The notes under the pieces are model-generated. The model saw only the letters and a program-made list of their open reading frames with translations. It was not told where the DNA came from and did not search any database. The position numbers and the translations under genes were made by a program. Source: Gemmatimonadaceae bacterium (GTDB lineage: Bacteria > Gemmatimonadota > Gemmatimonadetes > Gemmatimonadales > Gemmatimonadaceae). Taken from it: a stretch of 64,000 nucleotides of DNA. This document shows positions 26,321-34,585 of the stretch, in pieces (position 1 is the stretch's first letter; every line of letters starts with the position of its first letter). Location: NCBI GenBank assembly GCA_020852815.1, contig JADZAN010000019.1, positions 186,001 to 250,000 of the forward strand, given 5' to 3'.

Positions 26321-28021
26321 CTAGCGCTTGTACTCCGACGACATGCGCAACGGCTCGGTGCACGCCGGCCAGTTGCTCGGCGCCGGGAAGCCGCCCCCCT
26401 GCGACGCCGCGGGACCGCGGTCAAAGGTGCGACGGTCGCGCGACAGCGTCTCCGGATCTTCCGACGCGAGGTAGGCCAGCATCGCCGTCAACGTCGCGTT
26501 GGTGCGCACCTCCTCCGCCACCATCTTGTCGTACGTGTCACGCTGGGTGTGCCAGGTGTACGTCCCGTACGACCAGTCGAGCGCGCCCAGGCCGAACGCC
26601 GGCGCGCCGTAACAGACAAACGACGCGTTGTCGGAACCGCCCCCCGCCGGCGCACCGGGGAAGGAGAGGTTGACGTTGCGCGCAATCTCGGCGGGGATGT
26701 TGGACATCCAGCGCGCCACGTTGCCGCTGGCGGTGGTGAAGCCCGACGCCGAGAAGTTCACGACGCGCCCGGTCCCGTTGTCCTGGTTGAACAGCGCCTG
26801 CAGCCCCTTCACGACCTCGGGATGGTCCTTGGCGTAGCCGCGCGAACCGTTGAGCCCCTGCTCCTCTCCGCCCCAATGCCCGACGATGATGGTGCGCCTG
26901 GGATTGGGGTACACCTGCTTGAGGATGCGCAGCGCCTCGGCCATGACCACGGTCCCGGTCCCGTTGTCCGTCGTCCCCGAGCCGCCGTCCCACGAGTCGA
27001 AGTGCGCCGAGAGGACAACGTACTCGTCAGGCTTCTGCGCGCCCGGGATGCGAGCCACCGTGTTGAAGACAGGAACCTCGCCCAGGAACTCGGCGTCGGC
27101 GCGCACGCGCACCTTCGGTCCCTGCTTGTTGTCCGCCAGGCGGTAGAGCAGCCCGTAATCCTCGCACGAAAGGTCGAACGACGGCACCTTGCTGGTGCGC
27201 GAGTCGAAGACCTTCTGCACCCCCCAGCCGCGCGACCAGTTGCTGGCAATGACACCGGCAACGCCCCCCTGCTCCAGTCGCGCCCCAAGGAAGCCAGTGC
27301 CGAGCCCGGTGCCGTAGCCGGTGGCTTGCACGCGCTTCTGCCACGCCGTCTGTGCCGCGGTGCGCGCCGCCTTCATCCGCTCGAAGGTCTCGGGGAGGGC
27401 GAACTTCTCCCAGTTGTCGTCGGGACGGCACGTGGGTTGGAGCATCGAGACGAGGACGAACTTCCCCTTCGCCTGCGGCAGCCAGGCAACGAACGCGTTG
27501 GAGTCGGCAAACTCGGGAAGGACGACGACTTCACCGGTGACGTCCTTGTTGGCTGTTCCGGCGCTCCAGGCAAGCATCGTCCCTTCGAGCGTGCGCACGC
27601 GCGGCTCGATCAGGTCGATGTGCGACGTGCCGCGACGCCACCCCTTCCACGTCCCGTATTGCTCGTTCTTTGCCTCGATTCCCCATCCGGCGTAGGTCGC
27701 AACGAGCCAGTCGTTCCCTTTCTTCATTCCCGGCGCACCGGTAAGGCGCGGGCCGATCGAGTCGCTCAGTACCTGCCCCAGGCGCGCCACCTGCGAGTTG
27801 GTCATCCCTTCATCCCAGATCTTCCGGATGACGGGGTCGCTGGTGGGCCAGGACTGCGCGCGCGCGACCGAGGGCGCCACGGCGACGGCCAGCGCGAGTG
27901 CGCCGGAAAGCGCAGCGGCGAGCGTGGCGGCGAGGGCACGCGAGGGGACGGCGATGGGCGCCAACCGCGTCTCCGGCCGAGCGGTGTGCGAGAAGTGCTG
28001 CGAACGATGCAGAGGGCGCAT
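26321..28021 (-). CDS. Exported M28 family zinc aminopeptidase/carboxypeptidase
   Basis: A 566-residue secreted peptidase with an N-terminal signal segment (LAATLAAALSGALALAVAV..ARAQ). A PA-like insert sits mid-chain and the M28 catalytic domain is C-terminal. The zinc-site sequence is VVLSAHFDSWDGGSGTTDNG (His, Asp), HWGGEEQGLNGSRGYA (Glu pair), GGGSDNASF (Asp) and YTWHTQRDTYD (His), a complete co-catalytic dizinc set. It heads a four-gene leftward operon with very short spacers (1, 55 and 2 bases). Confidence 0.9.
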   Translation of the reverse strand: MRPLHRSQHFSHTARPETRLAPIAVPSRALAATLAAALSGALALAVAVAPSVARAQSWPTSDPVIRKIWDEGMTNSQVARLGQVLSDSIGPRLTGAPGMKKGNDWLVATYAGWGIEAKNEQYGTWKGWRRGTSHIDLIEPRVRTLEGTMLAWSAGTANKDVTGEVVVLPEFADSNAFVAWLPQAKGKFVLVSMLQPTCRPDDNWEKFALPETFERMKAARTAAQTAWQKRVQATGYGTGLGTGFLGARLEQGGVAGVIASNWSRGWGVQKVFDSRTSKVPSFDLSCEDYGLLYRLADNKQGPKVRVRADAEFLGEVPVFNTVARIPGAQKPDEYVVLSAHFDSWDGGSGTTDNGTGTVVMAEALRILKQVYPNPRRTIIVGHWGGEEQGLNGSRGYAKDHPEVVKGLQALFNQDNGTGRVVNFSASGFTTASGNVARWMSNIPAEIARNVNLSFPGAPAGGGSDNASFVCYGAPAFGLGALDWSYGTYTWHTQRDTYDKMVAEEVRTNATLTAMLAYLASEDPETLSRDRRTFDRGPAASQGGGFPAPSNWPACTEPLRMSSEYKR

Positions 28022-28255
28022 GACGAGTGTAGGGATGAGATGGGAATGACTGGGCGGCGCACCTGGTGCCGCGTCGCGAGAAGGGCGTCCGTAAAGTTCC
28101 GAACGAATCTGCCGCGTGCGCGAGGAAGATGGGAGGTTCACGGTTGAGTACGCCGCGCGCGGCTGAACCGTTCGCCGCCGCCGCGTCCACGCCACAGTCT
28201 TGCTCCGCTCGCGCTCGCGCTGTAACAAGGGTCGTCCATACCGGGATCGACAGCC

Positions 28256-30007
28256 ATGGCGGCTCGAAAGAGGCAGGTGGCGAAGAAGATGGCAGCGAAG
28301 CGCGCGTCGAAGCGCGCGTCGAAGCGCGCGTCGAAGCCGACATCGAAGACGACGCAGGCGGCGTTGAAGCGGGCATCCAGGCCACGCGCCACACCACCCG
28401 CAATCGCGCCCATCACTCCACAAGCGGCAGAGACGCCGATCGCCGCGCGGCGCCCCTCCGGCTTCGATCCGCGCCAGCTCGACCGCACCGTCATTGCCCT
28501 GCCACTGGTCAAGCGGTTCGAGGAGCAGCCGCAACCACCTCGTGACGCGCGGACCAAGGCGGTCGTTGCAGCTGCGCCCCGCTTCGCGGTCGTGATCGAC
28601 CTCAACCTCGACTACCACGACGGGCGAGAGGTGGCCCGCCGCGAGGTGATCGACGACATCGTTCAGGTGGTGAAGGGCGGGAGCGCCTTCACCGCCGAGG
28701 AACGCGAGGCGTATCGCGCGCGCCTCACGCGCCTTTCACCACTGCAGTACGTGGCGGCCAAACTCACCGAGGAAGAAATCAAGAACGTGGTGTGGCGCGA
28801 CGTCACGCAGGCCAACAACGCCTGGAACCAGCGCCGCATCTATCGCGTGTGGCCCGATTTCGAGGTCTCGGCGTGCCTCACCAAGAGCGTGTCGACGGTG
28901 AAAGCCGATGCAGCGCGTGTCGCATTCAAGGCCAGCGGGCGCGACATCGTGTGGGCGGTCATGGACTCCGGCATCGATGGCAAGCACCCGCACTTCGCCA
29001 CACACCAGAACCTCGTCCTCAAGGAACCCATCCGGCACGACACCTTCGTCGATGAAGACAACAGCGACCCGCTGCACGATGCCTTTGGTCACGGGACGCA
29101 CGTGGCGGGGATCATTGGCGGGATACTCGCCGCGCCGGGACGGAAGAAGGGAGTCGTCTACGCGGCGCACAGCGTGCGCGAGGAGAAGAGCAACGAGCGT
29201 CGCGTCGACCTCCGCGCGGTCACGGAGATCGGCGGCATTGCCCCGGAATGCAAGCTCGTGAGCATGAAGGTGCTCGACGAGCACGGCAGCGGGACGACGA
29301 CGGCAATCATCCGCGCCCTGCAACGGGTGAACGAGATCAACCAGGGCGGGCGTCGCCTCCTGATCCACGGCGTGAACCTCTCGCTCGGCTACGACTTCGA
29401 TCCCGAGTGGTTTGCCTGCGGACAAAGTCCGCTGTGCATCGAGGTGGACCGGCTGGTGCGGTCGGGTGTGGTGGTGGTGGTGGCGGCGGGAAACTCGGGG
29501 TACGGCTTCCAGAACACGCAGTTCACGAGCGTGAAGTCGGCGGGGCTCGCGCTGACGATCAACGACCCGGGCAACGCCGACGCGGCGATCACGGTGGGCT
29601 CGACGCACCGCGAGATGCCGCACCTGTACGGCGCCTCGTTCTTCTCGTCCAAGGGCCCCACCGGCGACGGGCGCATCAAGCCCGATCTGCTGGCACCGGG
29701 GGAGAAGATCGTCTCCTGCGCCGCCGGCTCCAAGAAGGATGACATGCTGGGACAGCCGCCCAGCGCGTCGTCTCCCCGCGCCTTCAAGGCAACCGACGTG
29801 CAGTACATCGAGGACAGCGGGACGAGCATGGCCGCCCCGCATGTCTCTGGCGCCATTGCCGCCTTTCTCTCGGTGCGGCGCGAGTTCCAGGGACAGCCGG
29901 AGCGGGTGAAGCAGCTCTTCATGGACAACGCCACCGACCTCAAGCGCGATCGCTACTTCCAGGGGCGCGGGCTGGTGGACCTCATGCGAACCATTCAATC
30001 GGTCTGA
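28256..30007 (+). CDS. Subtilisin-like (S8) serine protease with basic N-terminal tail and no signal peptide
   Basis: A 583-residue subtilase. The catalytic triad is intact: Asp237 in AVMDSGIDGKHP, His279 in GHGTHVAG and Ser524 in SGTSMAAPH. The oxyanion Asn is at 413 (AAGNSG). Residues 1-45 are Lys/Arg/Ala/Ser-rich with KRAS repeats, resembling DNA- or RNA-binding tails, and nothing looks like a signal peptide. This is unusual for a family that is mostly exported. A 190-residue N-terminal region precedes the protease core. The next gene, an alpha/beta hydrolase, starts 12 bases downstream. Likely an intracellular regulated protease; partner and trigger unknown. Confidence 0.85.
   Translation: MAARKRQVAKKMAAKRASKRASKRASKPTSKTTQAALKRASRPRATPPAIAPITPQAAETPIAARRPSGFDPRQLDRTVIALPLVKRFEEQPQPPRDARTKAVVAAAPRFAVVIDLNLDYHDGREVARREVIDDIVQVVKGGSAFTAEEREAYRARLTRLSPLQYVAAKLTEEEIKNVVWRDVTQANNAWNQRRIYRVWPDFEVSACLTKSVSTVKADAARVAFKASGRDIVWAVMDSGIDGKHPHFATHQNLVLKEPIRHDTFVDEDNSDPLHDAFGHGTHVAGIIGGILAAPGRKKGVVYAAHSVREEKSNERRVDLRAVTEIGGIAPECKLVSMKVLDEHGSGTTTAIIRALQRVNEINQGGRRLLIHGVNLSLGYDFDPEWFACGQSPLCIEVDRLVRSGVVVVVAAGNSGYGFQNTQFTSVKSAGLALTINDPGNADAAITVGSTHREMPHLYGASFFSSKGPTGDGRIKPDLLAPGEKIVSCAAGSKKDDMLGQPPSASSPRAFKATDVQYIEDSGTSMAAPHVSGAIAAFLSVRREFQGQPERVKQLFMDNATDLKRDRYFQGRGLVDLMRTIQSV
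28298..28333 (+). repeat. 12-bp tandem repeat (three perfect units) in the subtilase N-terminus
   Basis: Three perfect AAGCGCGCGTCG units encode KRAS repeats in the basic tail. A degenerate fourth unit follows. In-frame expansion is possible. Confidence 0.8.
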
Positions 30008-30019
30008 CGGAGCCCCACC

Positions 30020-31357
30020 ATGGCCACCAAGAACGGCTTTCCGTACGCGGAACTCGAGTTCGATGCCAAGGGGAAGTTCGGCCCTAACCAGCTGAAGGCG
30101 GCGATCGAGACGCTGCGCACCCCCGGGCTCACCGACGTCCTCATCCTCTCGCACGGGTGGAACAACGACATCGGCGACGCCCGCAAGTGGTACGGCGACT
30201 ACCTCAAGTGCCTGCGCGCGGAGCTCGATGCGCGCCTGGTGCCCGGCATCGACGCACACAAACTCGGCGTCGTCGCGATCTTCTGGCCGTCCAAGCGCTT
30301 TGCCGACTCCGAGCTGGTGGCGGGGAACGCGAGCTCGGTGGGGGGGGCGGTGACGCGCGCGGGAATCCGGAAGCAACTGGCGCTGCTGGCCAGCGCCTTC
30401 CCCGACAAGGCGTCCAAGGCAAAGTTCGCCGCCGCCGAGAAGCTCCTCGACAAGATCGAGGGCGACGTAGCGGCGCAGCGCAAGTTCGTCGACCTGCTGC
30501 GCGGCTTTTGGCCGACGGGGAAGTCGGGCGCCGACGCCCTGCCGGCGGCCGGGGCCGGCAAGCCGGGAGACCAGGTGCTCAAGTTGCTCGCCCCGCCCAT
30601 CCTCGACCTTCCGACCGGGACAGGCGCGGGGACGACCGGCGGCGCGACCTCGATCGGTGGCGCCGGCGGGTCCGCCGGCGGAGGCAACGGCGGCCAAGCC
30701 GCCAACATCTTCGGCTCGGTGCTGGACGGCGTACGCAACGCCCTCAACATGACGACGTACTTCACGATGAAGGAGCGTGCCGGGACCGTCGGGGCCAACG
30801 GGCTTGCGCCGGTGGTGCAACGCATCCAGGCGGAGTTGCCGAATCTCAAGCTGCACCTGGCGGGGCACTCCTTCGGTGGGCGCGTGGTGATCGCGTGCGT
30901 GAACGCGCTCCCCAAGGGGGCGGCGAACCGCGTCGCCTCGCTCTTCCTGATGCAGGCCGCGTTCTCGCACTATGGCATGGCGCAGAAGTACGACGGGACG
31001 AGCAATGGCCTGTTTCGCTCGGTCGTTAGCGACAAGAAGGTGGCCGGTCCCATCTACATCACCTACACGTCGAAGGACAAGGCGGTGGGGCTGGCCTATC
31101 CGCTTGCCTCACGCCTGGGCGGGCAGGTGGCGGCCGGGCTGGGCGACGAGAACGACAAGTACGGCGGGATCGGGCGCAACGGGGCGCAGAAGACCCCCGA
31201 GGTGACGCCGCACGAGCTCCTCCCGCCCAGCCAGCAGTATGCGTTCAACGCCGGTGGCGTCTACAACCTGGACGCCAACGCCGTGATCACCTCGCACAGC
31301 GACATCTGCCGCGCCGAGGTGGCGCACGCGCTGGCCTCGGCCATCGCCAGCACCTGA
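30020..31357 (+). CDS. Alpha/beta hydrolase (lipase-like), partner of the upstream subtilase
   Basis: A 445-residue hydrolase-fold protein. A first strand with an oxyanion-type motif is seen at VLILSHGWNNDIGDAR (about 40-55). The nucleophile elbow is LAGHSFGGRV with Ser284. A plausible acid is Asp353 (TSKDKAVG) and a plausible base is His426 (TSHSDI). A Gly-rich insert (about 200-226) splits the core before the elbow. No signal peptide or membrane segment is seen, so it should be cytoplasmic. It follows the subtilase by 12 bases in the same direction, and a perfect terminator hairpin follows. Substrate unknown; lipid or peptide esters are both possible. Confidence 0.8.
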   Translation: MATKNGFPYAELEFDAKGKFGPNQLKAAIETLRTPGLTDVLILSHGWNNDIGDARKWYGDYLKCLRAELDARLVPGIDAHKLGVVAIFWPSKRFADSELVAGNASSVGGAVTRAGIRKQLALLASAFPDKASKAKFAAAEKLLDKIEGDVAAQRKFVDLLRGFWPTGKSGADALPAAGAGKPGDQVLKLLAPPILDLPTGTGAGTTGGATSIGGAGGSAGGGNGGQAANIFGSVLDGVRNALNMTTYFTMKERAGTVGANGLAPVVQRIQAELPNLKLHLAGHSFGGRVVIACVNALPKGAANRVASLFLMQAAFSHYGMAQKYDGTSNGLFRSVVSDKKVAGPIYITYTSKDKAVGLAYPLASRLGGQVAAGLGDENDKYGGIGRNGAQKTPEVTPHELLPPSQQYAFNAGGVYNLDANAVITSHSDICRAEVAHALASAIAST

Positions 31358-31418
31358 CGGACCGGCCCCGCCAGCCGCACGCCCCCGCCAGCCGCACGAT
31401 CTCGCCAGGCGCAAACGA

Positions 31419-31450
31419 ACGCGGCGCCCTCCGGGTGGAGGGCGCCGCGT
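31419..31450. terminator. Perfect 14-bp hairpin between convergent genes
   Basis: ACGCGGCGCCCTCC (31419-31432), loop GGGT, then its exact complement (31437-31450). It lies between the ends of the alpha/beta hydrolase (31357) and the M14 peptidase (31484). No U-tract on either side, so it is a bidirectional GC hairpin rather than a textbook intrinsic terminator. Confidence 0.7.
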
Positions 31451-31483
31451 CGTGCCTGTGCCGCCGTCGGACCGCGCGGGGTG

Positions 31484-34339
31484 CTACTTCCCGCCGTCAG
31501 CGTAGATCCCGTTGAACAGGAACTTGAACGTCCCGTGCGGCGTGGCGCGGAACGTCACCTCGGGACCAAAGAGGTAGAGCATCCCCTTCCCCACCTTGGC
31601 CTCGGCAGCCGCAACGCCGCCCTCGAGGTAGCCCTGCCCCCACGCCCAACCGGAGCGCAGCGGGTGGTCGGTGGCGAACCACGCCACCGGACGCACCCCC
31701 TTGAGCGCGGCATCCGGGCCCAGGCGGAACGTCGGCGAGTCGTCGAAGAAGACGTCGGTCTCGGCGTTGAGGCCGTAGGCGACCGGGACGCTGTTGTCGA
31801 CGCTGGCCCGGAGCACCGAGCCCGGAACGTAGAACTTCTCCCGCGGAATCTCGCGCTCCTCGCCCGTGGGGGTCTTCTCCACGAGATAGTCGTACACCGG
31901 GAGCCCGAGGTGATACGCCAGGTTGGTCGACGTCCCCACCGTGATCACCGTCCCGCCCTGCTCGAGGAACTGCTTGAGCTGCGGAACGCTCTTGTCCGCC
32001 GAGAGGCGCCCCAGCCACGAGCGGTACTGCGCCGGGATTTCGTTAGGCGCGGGCTGGCGGTTGAAGCGCTCCATCATCGCCGACAGCTCGCTCCCGCCCT
32101 CGCGACGCGCCGCCGGAATGGCACCCGTCACGAAGACGATCACGTCATACTTGGCCTTCAGGTTGCCGGCGTCGATCACCGGCGAGTAGATCACGTCGAA
32201 GGGGAACTCGAACTGCTCCAGCAGCCAGCGCGTGTGCCCGGACGGCATGGAGCCGCCGTACGTGTCCCACAGCGCGATGCGCTTGGGCGAGATGCGCGTG
32301 GCGTTCCCCGGACCGGCGCTGGTGCCGTGCACCGGGACGCCGAGTTCCTTCGCCGCCTTCTCGACGATCGACTTGGTGGCGCCGCTGGCGCCGAGGTACC
32401 AGGCGCCGGCCGGATGCGTCACGTTTCCCATCGTGAGCGGCTCGTTGACGCGGTACACCGCGGCGCCGGCCTTGAGCGCGCGGTTGGCCACGACGAAGGC
32501 ATCGTTGACGCGCGGATCGATCACGTAGCCCTTGGCACCAGCACCATTCGCCACGGTGAGTGCCGGCGGCGTCGCCAGCCCCTCGATCTTCTCGCACGGG
32601 CAGTCGAAGCCGTCGAGGATGCGATCGAACTGGATCCCCATCTGGAAGGCGAGCGTCCACCCGGCATTGTCATACGGCGGCCGCGGCGGCCCGCCCGGAT
32701 ACGCGAAGTCGTTCGGGTGATCCTGCGGCTCGAACATGTCGAGGACGTGCGGGCGGAACGCCTGCGCCGACTTCACCACATACGAGCCCGCCGGGTACTG
32801 CTTGCCATTCACCGTGAACGCCGCGGTGGCGCGCTGCACGGTGACGTTTGCCTTGCGCAGCGCATTCACGAACTTGGTCGCCGTCCCGAAGTCGGGCTGC
32901 GTCGTCGGGATGATGTAGCCGCGCGGGTCGCGCTTGGCCGGGTCGCGCAGCGCCGACATGTACGAGCTGGGGACCGTCCCGCCAAACGGGTTGAGCGCCG
33001 CCGACAGACGGTCACGCCCGTTCCCCGTCGCCGCGCCCGCTGCACGCTCCTTGTTGATCCTCGCCTGCAGCTCCGCCACCTCGGTGGGCGTCACCGTCCA
33101 CGAGTCGCGGTTGCCGCGGTCGATCATGTTCTTCGCCATCCGGTAGATGTTGAAGAGGAAGTCTTCCTTCCGCTTCGAGGCGATGTCGAACACGGCGTAG
33201 TTCGCGGTGACCGAGTAGTCGATCGACTGGCGGAAATGCCACTCCTGCGGCGCGATGGGATACGGAAGGTCGGCGCGCGGGAGCTGGTTGTTCACCACCA
33301 GCGGAATCTCCATCGGCGTCGGCGACCCGATGGTCTCCGTGAGGAGGCCGATCATGTTGTGGAAGTACGCCAGCGTGCGAAGCCCGCCGTTCCACCACGT
33401 GGAGTAGCTCGACCCCGAGCGCATCGTGACGCCCGGCTTCCCTTCCACGGCAAAGCGCGTGTGCATCGCCGAGCCCACCATGTCGATGCCTAACGGGATG
33501 AGCGGGTCGAAGTTGTAGTTGAACGGGTCGCGGAACGGTGGCGCGAACATCACCGTCCCCGCCGGACCCGTCTGGTGGTGGTTGTAGACGATCTGCGGGA
33601 ACCACTCCGAATACTGGATCCGCGCGATGTTGATCGACTCGTTCTGGTTCAGGATGAAGAAGTCGCGGTTGTTGTCGTGCCCGATGTACTTCTGGTACAG
33701 GCGCGGAATGGTCCCGAACGTCTTCTTCTTGTCATCGGGCTCCTGCATGTACCACGACGACACCAGCTCCATCCCGTCCGGGTTGGCATGCACCGCGAGG
33801 ATGATGTCGTCCTTCAGGATGCGCTGCGTCTCCTCGTCGTTGCGCGAGATGAGCTGGTACGTGGTCTCGATGAGCTGGTGCGCGCCGAGCACCTCGGTCG
33901 CGTGCAACCCGCCGTCGAACCAGACCACCGCCTTCCCTTCCTTGGCCAGCGCACGCGCCTCGGCGTCGGTGAGCCCCTCGGCCATCGCCAGCTTGCGGGC
34001 AATCTCCTTGTAACGGTCGAGGAGCCGGAAGTTCTCCGGCGACGTGATGATCGCCATGAGCTGCGGGCGCCCCTCGGCCGACTTGCCGATCTCCTGCACC
34101 ACCATGCGATCCGACTCGCTGTCGATCTTCTTCCAGTAGTCGATGAACTGGGTGTAGGTGGCGAGCTTGTAGTCATCGCCGATGTTGAAGCCGAAGAACT
34201 CCTTGGGCGAAGTGACGCGCCCCTGTGCCTGCACGGGGACGGCACTCAGGGCCAGCGCTGTGCCTGCGCCGAGGGTGAACGCGGCGCTCGCGACCAGGCG
34301 ACGAACGCGCGGCGTTCGGGGTGGGACCGTATCGAACAT
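31484..34339 (-). CDS. Exported M14 family zinc carboxypeptidase
   Basis: A 951-residue secreted metallopeptidase. The signal segment LVASAAFTLGAGTALALSAVPVQAQ is cleaved near residue 38. The M14 catalytic domain has the HxxE zinc pair in DGGLHATEV (His146, Glu149), HANPDGMEL, and the likely catalytic Glu in GLLTETIG. A C-terminal half of about 450 residues looks like a glutamine-amidotransferase-like fold (KYDVIVFVTGAIP, LEQGGTVITVG). This large two-domain form occurs in soil bacteria. ATG 34339 is preferred over 34372. Single-gene unit, divergent from thrA. Confidence 0.88.
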   Translation of the reverse strand: MFDTVPPRTPRVRRLVASAAFTLGAGTALALSAVPVQAQGRVTSPKEFFGFNIGDDYKLATYTQFIDYWKKIDSESDRMVVQEIGKSAEGRPQLMAIITSPENFRLLDRYKEIARKLAMAEGLTDAEARALAKEGKAVVWFDGGLHATEVLGAHQLIETTYQLISRNDEETQRILKDDIILAVHANPDGMELVSSWYMQEPDDKKKTFGTIPRLYQKYIGHDNNRDFFILNQNESINIARIQYSEWFPQIVYNHHQTGPAGTVMFAPPFRDPFNYNFDPLIPLGIDMVGSAMHTRFAVEGKPGVTMRSGSSYSTWWNGGLRTLAYFHNMIGLLTETIGSPTPMEIPLVVNNQLPRADLPYPIAPQEWHFRQSIDYSVTANYAVFDIASKRKEDFLFNIYRMAKNMIDRGNRDSWTVTPTEVAELQARINKERAAGAATGNGRDRLSAALNPFGGTVPSSYMSALRDPAKRDPRGYIIPTTQPDFGTATKFVNALRKANVTVQRATAAFTVNGKQYPAGSYVVKSAQAFRPHVLDMFEPQDHPNDFAYPGGPPRPPYDNAGWTLAFQMGIQFDRILDGFDCPCEKIEGLATPPALTVANGAGAKGYVIDPRVNDAFVVANRALKAGAAVYRVNEPLTMGNVTHPAGAWYLGASGATKSIVEKAAKELGVPVHGTSAGPGNATRISPKRIALWDTYGGSMPSGHTRWLLEQFEFPFDVIYSPVIDAGNLKAKYDVIVFVTGAIPAARREGGSELSAMMERFNRQPAPNEIPAQYRSWLGRLSADKSVPQLKQFLEQGGTVITVGTSTNLAYHLGLPVYDYLVEKTPTGEEREIPREKFYVPGSVLRASVDNSVPVAYGLNAETDVFFDDSPTFRLGPDAALKGVRPVAWFATDHPLRSGWAWGQGYLEGGVAAAEAKVGKGMLYLFGPEVTFRATPHGTFKFLFNGIYADGGK

Positions 34340-34585
34340 GCGACGTCTCGTGGGGATGGGGAAAAGGGACATGGGAGCCGATCTCGGCGGGCTATCCGCG
34401 CTACGAGGATACTCTACGTCGCCCTGCAGAACACGTCCATCGTGAACCGCGTGGCAGCGAGCTCTCGCTCTTTACGCGTCGCCGACGATGCGCGCTGCGA
34501 ACGCAGACCACCCGCCACGCGCCATCGGCCGCCCCTTCCCGTTCGCCAGGACCGTGTTGCAGCCGGGAACGGCGCCACGCAGGTC

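Follow-up and report, generated by a model that had tools for sequence, protein, structure and literature searches.

A conserved gene pair of a subtilase and an alpha/beta hydrolase that may form a protease-triggered self-damage module in bacteria

A gene for a subtilase of peptidase family S8 and a gene for an alpha/beta hydrolase lie side by side in bacteria of at least four phyla, and the pair is probably a protease-triggered self-damage module, because relatives of each of the two proteins pair with known or predicted immune parts. The pair considered here occurs in a window of 64,000 nucleotides from a Gemmatimonadaceae bacterium of the phylum Gemmatimonadota. The protease gene comes first (28256..30007, plus strand) and encodes 583 amino acids, as defined by its open reading frame, its translation, a PF00082 match and a family alignment. 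The hydrolase gene follows 12 bp downstream on the same strand (30020..31357) and encodes 445 amino acids, as defined by open reading frame, translation, family alignment and structure model. The gap between them (30008..30019, plus strand), CGGAGCCCCACC, contains a GGAG motif that resembles a ribosome-binding site, and among relatives the corresponding gap varies from 5 to 31 bp. Both reading frames and the 12-base gap had been given in a preliminary description of this DNA, and these coordinates are confirmed. The same description placed a strong terminator behind the pair. Between the convergent genes for the hydrolase and an M14 peptidase there is indeed a strong 17-bp hairpin (31415..31453, without strand; -37.4 kcal/mol, z -3.2), but it has no U-tract and the intrinsic-terminator scan called none at this position, so that an intrinsic terminator 3' of the hydrolase gene is rejected. 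No Rfam elements were found at the locus.

The subtilase matches PF00082 over residues 228-565 (E 9e-43), and this match together with the family alignment delimits the S8 catalytic domain (28937..29950, plus strand). The protein carries the catalytic Asp, His, Asn and Ser that characterize family S8: Asp237 (codon 28964-28966), His279 (29090-29092), the oxyanion Asn413 (29492-29494) and Ser524 (29825-29827), all on the plus strand, are invariant in an alignment of 13 homologues, and the Asp/His/Ser triad noted earlier is thus intact. The top PADLOC model is 'subtilase' PDLC03014 (4.5e-49), which scores far better than the weakly matching IetS profiles. Ahead of the catalytic domain the structure model has the order beta-alpha-beta-alpha-beta, and here residues 109-205 (28580..28870, plus strand) form a prodomain-like segment of the ferredoxin-like I9 type, identified from the structure model and its PDB matches, which has no Pfam match and is a predicted inhibitor in cis. 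The model is of moderate confidence (mean pLDDT 65.6), and its best PDB matches are the unautoprocessed pro-subtilisins 3afg, 3whi and 2z2z. These matches, taken with the prodomain-like region, suggest that the subtilase is a zymogen under the control of its own N-terminal domain. Prodomains are also found in ordinary secreted subtilases, and this counts against the specificity of such a reading. In two relatives (L022 and L029) the N-terminal region appears by eye in the alignment to be longer and partly repeated.

The first 68 residues of the subtilase (28256..28459, plus strand) make up a basic tail of low complexity, the sequence of which is not conserved in the alignment, and pLDDT is below 50 at residues 24-77. 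A KRAS repeat in this protein had been proposed to suit binding of nucleic acid or membrane. It is encoded by a perfect 12-bp tandem DNA repeat of 3.5 copies (28296-28337) that is absent from the relatives, so that the functional reading is unsupported and the tail is rejected as a binding feature of the family; short basic N-termini are seen again in some relatives. When both members of 17 pairs were scanned with a simple, untrained hydropathy method, neither N-terminus showed a hydrophobic segment of signal type, which bears out the earlier statement that neither protein has a signal peptide, and a single high value of 2.31, at locus L030, lies within a conserved internal motif. Judged by its sequence, the subtilase is apparently intracellular.

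The GHSFGG motif first noticed in the hydrolase is real. It holds the nucleophile Ser284 (codon 30869-30871, plus strand), which together with Asp353 (31076-31078) and His426 (31295-31297) forms a triad that is invariant in all 17 aligned relatives. An oxyanion HG is located at residues 45-46 (within 30020..31357, plus strand) from the alignment or the structure model. With its GxSxG elbow, acid, His and alpha/beta core the protein has the alpha/beta hydrolase fold, in a model with a mean pLDDT of 81 and a pTM of 0.85. It scores above the cut-off for no family in Pfam or NCBIfam, and none of the PADLOC models matches it. Its relatives carry the annotation of hypothetical protein, and a PDB search with the model gave no match below E 0.001, the weak matches being lipase-like. 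In the cap region, residues 196-230 (30605..30709, plus strand) form a Gly-rich insert, disordered as judged by pLDDT below 50 and by the alignment, which may serve as a gate or as the segment that is cleaved. At this site a linker of 23-48 residues, variable among the relatives, is present in all 17. Since both its length and its sequence vary, one glycine being the sole invariant residue, no conserved cleavage site can be named in the insert.

In a search of the phylum, the hydrolase was present in 12 of 298 Gemmatimonadota genomes, and in 11 of these the preceding gene is the same subtilase (identity 44-70% for the 10 relatives); in the twelfth, L033, a caspase-type operon takes the place of the subtilase. 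The subtilase was found in 22 of 179 genomes at the family level, where its partner is the adjacent hydrolase in 15 cases, another alpha/beta hydrolase fused to it in four and an adjacent metallo-beta-lactamase (MBL) hydrolase in two, while one locus lies at a contig edge. A hydrolase partner, adjacent or fused, thus accompanies the subtilase in every readable case. A Terriglobus MAG also carries the pair, as do plasmids of Rhizobium, Sinorhizobium and Rhodococcus; the survey went deep in one Gemmatimonadota family and sampled other phyla by way of MAG and plasmid loci. The subtilase and hydrolase distance matrices are correlated over 17 pairs (Mantel r = 0.87, uncorrected for species phylogeny), and none of 10000 permutations gave a value as high. 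The pairing is far above chance, and no neighbours other than the two genes are shared broadly across genera. The preliminary description had named rare adjacency of the homologues and a cleavable secretion signal as findings that would speak against it; neither occurred, and the homologues are neighbours across phyla.

The strongest clue to the function of the pair is that both proteins swap partners. The same hydrolase family adjoins caspase-fold peptidases of the CHAT and C25 types in Nostoc, Planktothrix, Bradyrhizobium, Gemmobacter and Embleya. In Bradyrhizobium, in Gemmobacter, in two Embleya and in one member of the Gemmatimonadota, the order is hydrolase, unknown protein, CHAT peptidase and C25-like protein, and this operon spans Pseudomonadota, Actinomycetota and Gemmatimonadota. 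The conserved four-gene loci are L043:5968-11567, L044:5965-11372, L033:8798-14434, L041 and L045. The hydrolase gene is followed by C25 in Sinorhizobium terangae and in Nostoc, where CHAT is also present, and by CHAT in Planktothrix. The Nostoc CHAT shares its chain with an nSTAND1 NTPase and WD40 repeats, and the Planktothrix CHAT is likewise fused to nSTAND1; the layout is NLR-like.

The subtilase, in turn, has a sister branch which precedes MBL hydrolases in Gemmatimonadota, Methylorubrum and Miltoncostaea, and these partners match the PADLOC models LmuA, Avs1a and RTasMBL. Experiments have shown proteins of this MBL class to be pro-nucleases, which a trypsin or caspase encoded as partner opens (PMC12799240, 2025). 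In four genomes an alpha/beta hydrolase precedes the subtilase within a single chain (L071:3625-6273, L072:5862-8504, L073:3207-5978 and L074:6316-9045), the proteins having 880-923 amino acids and Lys/Ala-rich N-termini. The motifs of the fused domain are VHG, VAHSQG, DPLDP and HPHS, and membership in the family of the paired hydrolase is rejected (hhalign probability 0.4%); by its sequence, the same subtilase has here taken up a hydrolase of another family. In the subtilase tree, the MBL-paired proteins fall into one supported group and the fusions into another.

Conflict-type neighbours are present at two sister loci. On the Methylorubrum plasmid pCMU01 (L048:281-6956), a Pycsar-like nucleotide cyclase, an E2-domain protein and a CAP12/Pycsar TIR effector are encoded directly upstream of the subtilase and MBL genes. 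In a Gemmatimonadota locus (L075:1061-8406), genes for a patatin lipase, the subtilase and an LmuA/Avs1a-like MBL protein are followed by a SIR2-pYEATS gene, and this cluster is possibly a multi-effector conflict locus. On a Miltoncostaea plasmid (L047:4047-8185), the subtilase, an MBL hydrolase and a Tle1-like phospholipase share a single operon.

On these grounds we give about even chances to a self-contained effector module of two genes, in which a cytoplasmic zymogen subtilase, once triggered, cleaves and thereby activates its partner hydrolase. The subtilase would be held inactive in the cytoplasm by its own prodomain-like N-terminal domain until a trigger, for which infection or cell damage is the likeliest candidate, activated it. 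The active subtilase would then cut the hydrolase, with the disordered insert beside the cap as the likeliest site, and the freed lipase, phospholipase or esterase would damage the lipids of the cell itself, the presumed substrate, or another ester pool, so that growth of the host cell would stop. The simplest account is that a regulated cytoplasmic protease switches on a hydrolase in the way that proteases of the trypsin and caspase types do with MBL nucleases. The pattern of a regulated effector or conflict module, put forward in the preliminary description, is supported by an intracellular-looking protease, a coupled hydrolase and their adjacency across phyla. A stronger version, in which one subtilase zymogen serves both as infection sensor and as activator of a gated lipase in a stand-alone immune or suicide system, is put forward only tentatively, and we consider it rather doubtful. 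If it were true, two genes with a subtilase would do what caspases do, and protease-gated immunity would have lipases as effectors of a second class, next to the MBL nucleases.

The closest comparison is with HamM/HamA, Avs1a/Avs1b, Lamassu and Canu, in which a gated MBL pro-nuclease is combined with a protease of trypsin or caspase type (PMC12799240). As in these systems, protease and hydrolase genes are adjacent and co-inherited, and the hydrolase has a disordered insert. The first of these likenesses is clear and the second partial, since the insert would also have to block the active site and to be cut. Unlike them, the present pair has a stand-alone S8 subtilase and an alpha/beta hydrolase instead of an MBL-fold nuclease, a partner seen solely in the sister branch of the subtilase, and the STAND, HamB and LmuB sensors are absent from its operon; no sensor gene is conserved alongside the pair. 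Tuck et al. 2025 (PMC12799240) state that protease-activated pairs also include proteases of other families, and they predict further enzyme types in the class; subtilases and lipases are unmentioned in the main text of that paper, from which its supplement may differ. Caspases paired with alpha/beta hydrolases are known from the VMAP and GAP1 conflict systems (Kaur et al. 2020, PMC7159879), which likewise combine a peptidase with an alpha/beta hydrolase gene, and the present hydrolase family also joins caspase-fold peptidases. Here, in contrast, the peptidase is an S8 subtilase from outside the caspase and trypsin superfamilies, its gene comes first, and the MoxR-vWA, VMAP and GTPase core is absent beside the pair. 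With IetAS, an AAA ATPase and a subtilase, the pair shares a PF00082 subtilase, but no AAA ATPase IetA is adjacent. With pro-subtilisins and other prodomain subtilases it shares a prodomain-like domain ahead of an S8 domain, but no signal peptide is found and a hydrolase gene is adjacent or fused wherever the locus can be read.

Since pairs of a protease with a proenzyme and of a caspase with an alpha/beta hydrolase are already known kinds (PMC12799240, PMC7159879), the earlier designation as an undescribed system needs qualification. For the combination of subtilase and alpha/beta hydrolase, a search of the openly readable literature, the supplements of the two key papers aside, found no description. 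If borne out, the present reading would extend the newly recognized protease-activated immune pairs of bacteria by a new kind of activator, the subtilases, and a new kind of effector, the alpha/beta hydrolases, and the pair, with no more than two genes, is a minimal case for a direct test of the 2025 prediction of further enzyme types (PMC12799240).

In a different assignment of the two roles, killing would be the work of the subtilase, with the hydrolase modifying or limiting it, or else both would act as parallel effectors freed together by some other sensor. The hydrolase-subtilase fusions place both activities in one chain, and lipases (patatin and Tle1-like) accompany S8-MBL pairs, so that lipase and protease may act in parallel. 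In the related MBL systems, however, activation is the task of the protease and the hydrolase acts as effector (PMC12799240), and we hold the reversed or parallel arrangement to be unlikely.

Equally, the pair could be a conserved cytoplasmic housekeeping complex, for example for stress-induced turnover of proteins and of storage or membrane lipids. The preliminary description raised residence in a defence island, but in the window and in its Gemmatimonadota relatives, where the pair is chromosomal, the flanks are mostly of housekeeping type. The neighbours in the window are metabolic (M28, M14, an FMN dehydrogenase, an AMP-binding enzyme, homoserine dehydrogenase and kinase, and PALP), and 63 proteins from the flanks of 12 loci gave few PADLOC matches, mostly housekeeping-like and counted without a random-locus baseline. 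Residence in a defence island is not supported for these loci. Synteny is, moreover, maintained within the genus. Against a housekeeping complex stand the patchy presence of the hydrolase (12/298 genomes), the occurrence of the pair on plasmids, and the swapping with partners of the CHAT-STAND and MBL pro-nuclease types, and we give it only a small probability. As the neighbours in the window are metabolic and the flanks of related loci not visibly rich in defence genes, the putative immune role of the pair rests on partner swapping among homologues and on the sister loci. No relatives were found in phage records and none was confirmed in viral contigs, and a viral origin of the pair is rejected.

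It is very unlikely that the two proteins are digestive or antagonistic enzymes exported by a signal-less route, such as type VI secretion (T6SS) cargo. The hydrolase does resemble the T6SS lipase effector Tle3 weakly in fold, and genes for the exopeptidases M28 (26321-28618) and M14 (31484-34372) lie on the opposite strand on either side of the pair; the arrangement is confined to the genus, however, no signal peptide was found in 17 pairs, and no secretion or immunity gene is conserved beside them. A peptide maturation pair, with the subtilase as leader peptidase of the cyanobactin PatA type and a thioesterase-like hydrolase, is least probable of all, since its signs are a very weak PatA-like score (E 0.18) and, at one locus in Rhodococcus, a nearby LanC gene, while no gene for a precursor or a modifying enzyme is conserved beside the pair.

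Two Rhodococcus plasmids carry apparently altered forms of the locus. On pNit of Rhodococcus rhodochrous (L042:3969-7320), the hydrolase is preceded by only a fragment with similarity to the subtilase (residues 466-583), possibly a frameshifted or decayed partner, and on a plasmid of Rhodococcus DK176 (L040:7108-8408) the hydrolase is apparently truncated beside an IS5 transposase.
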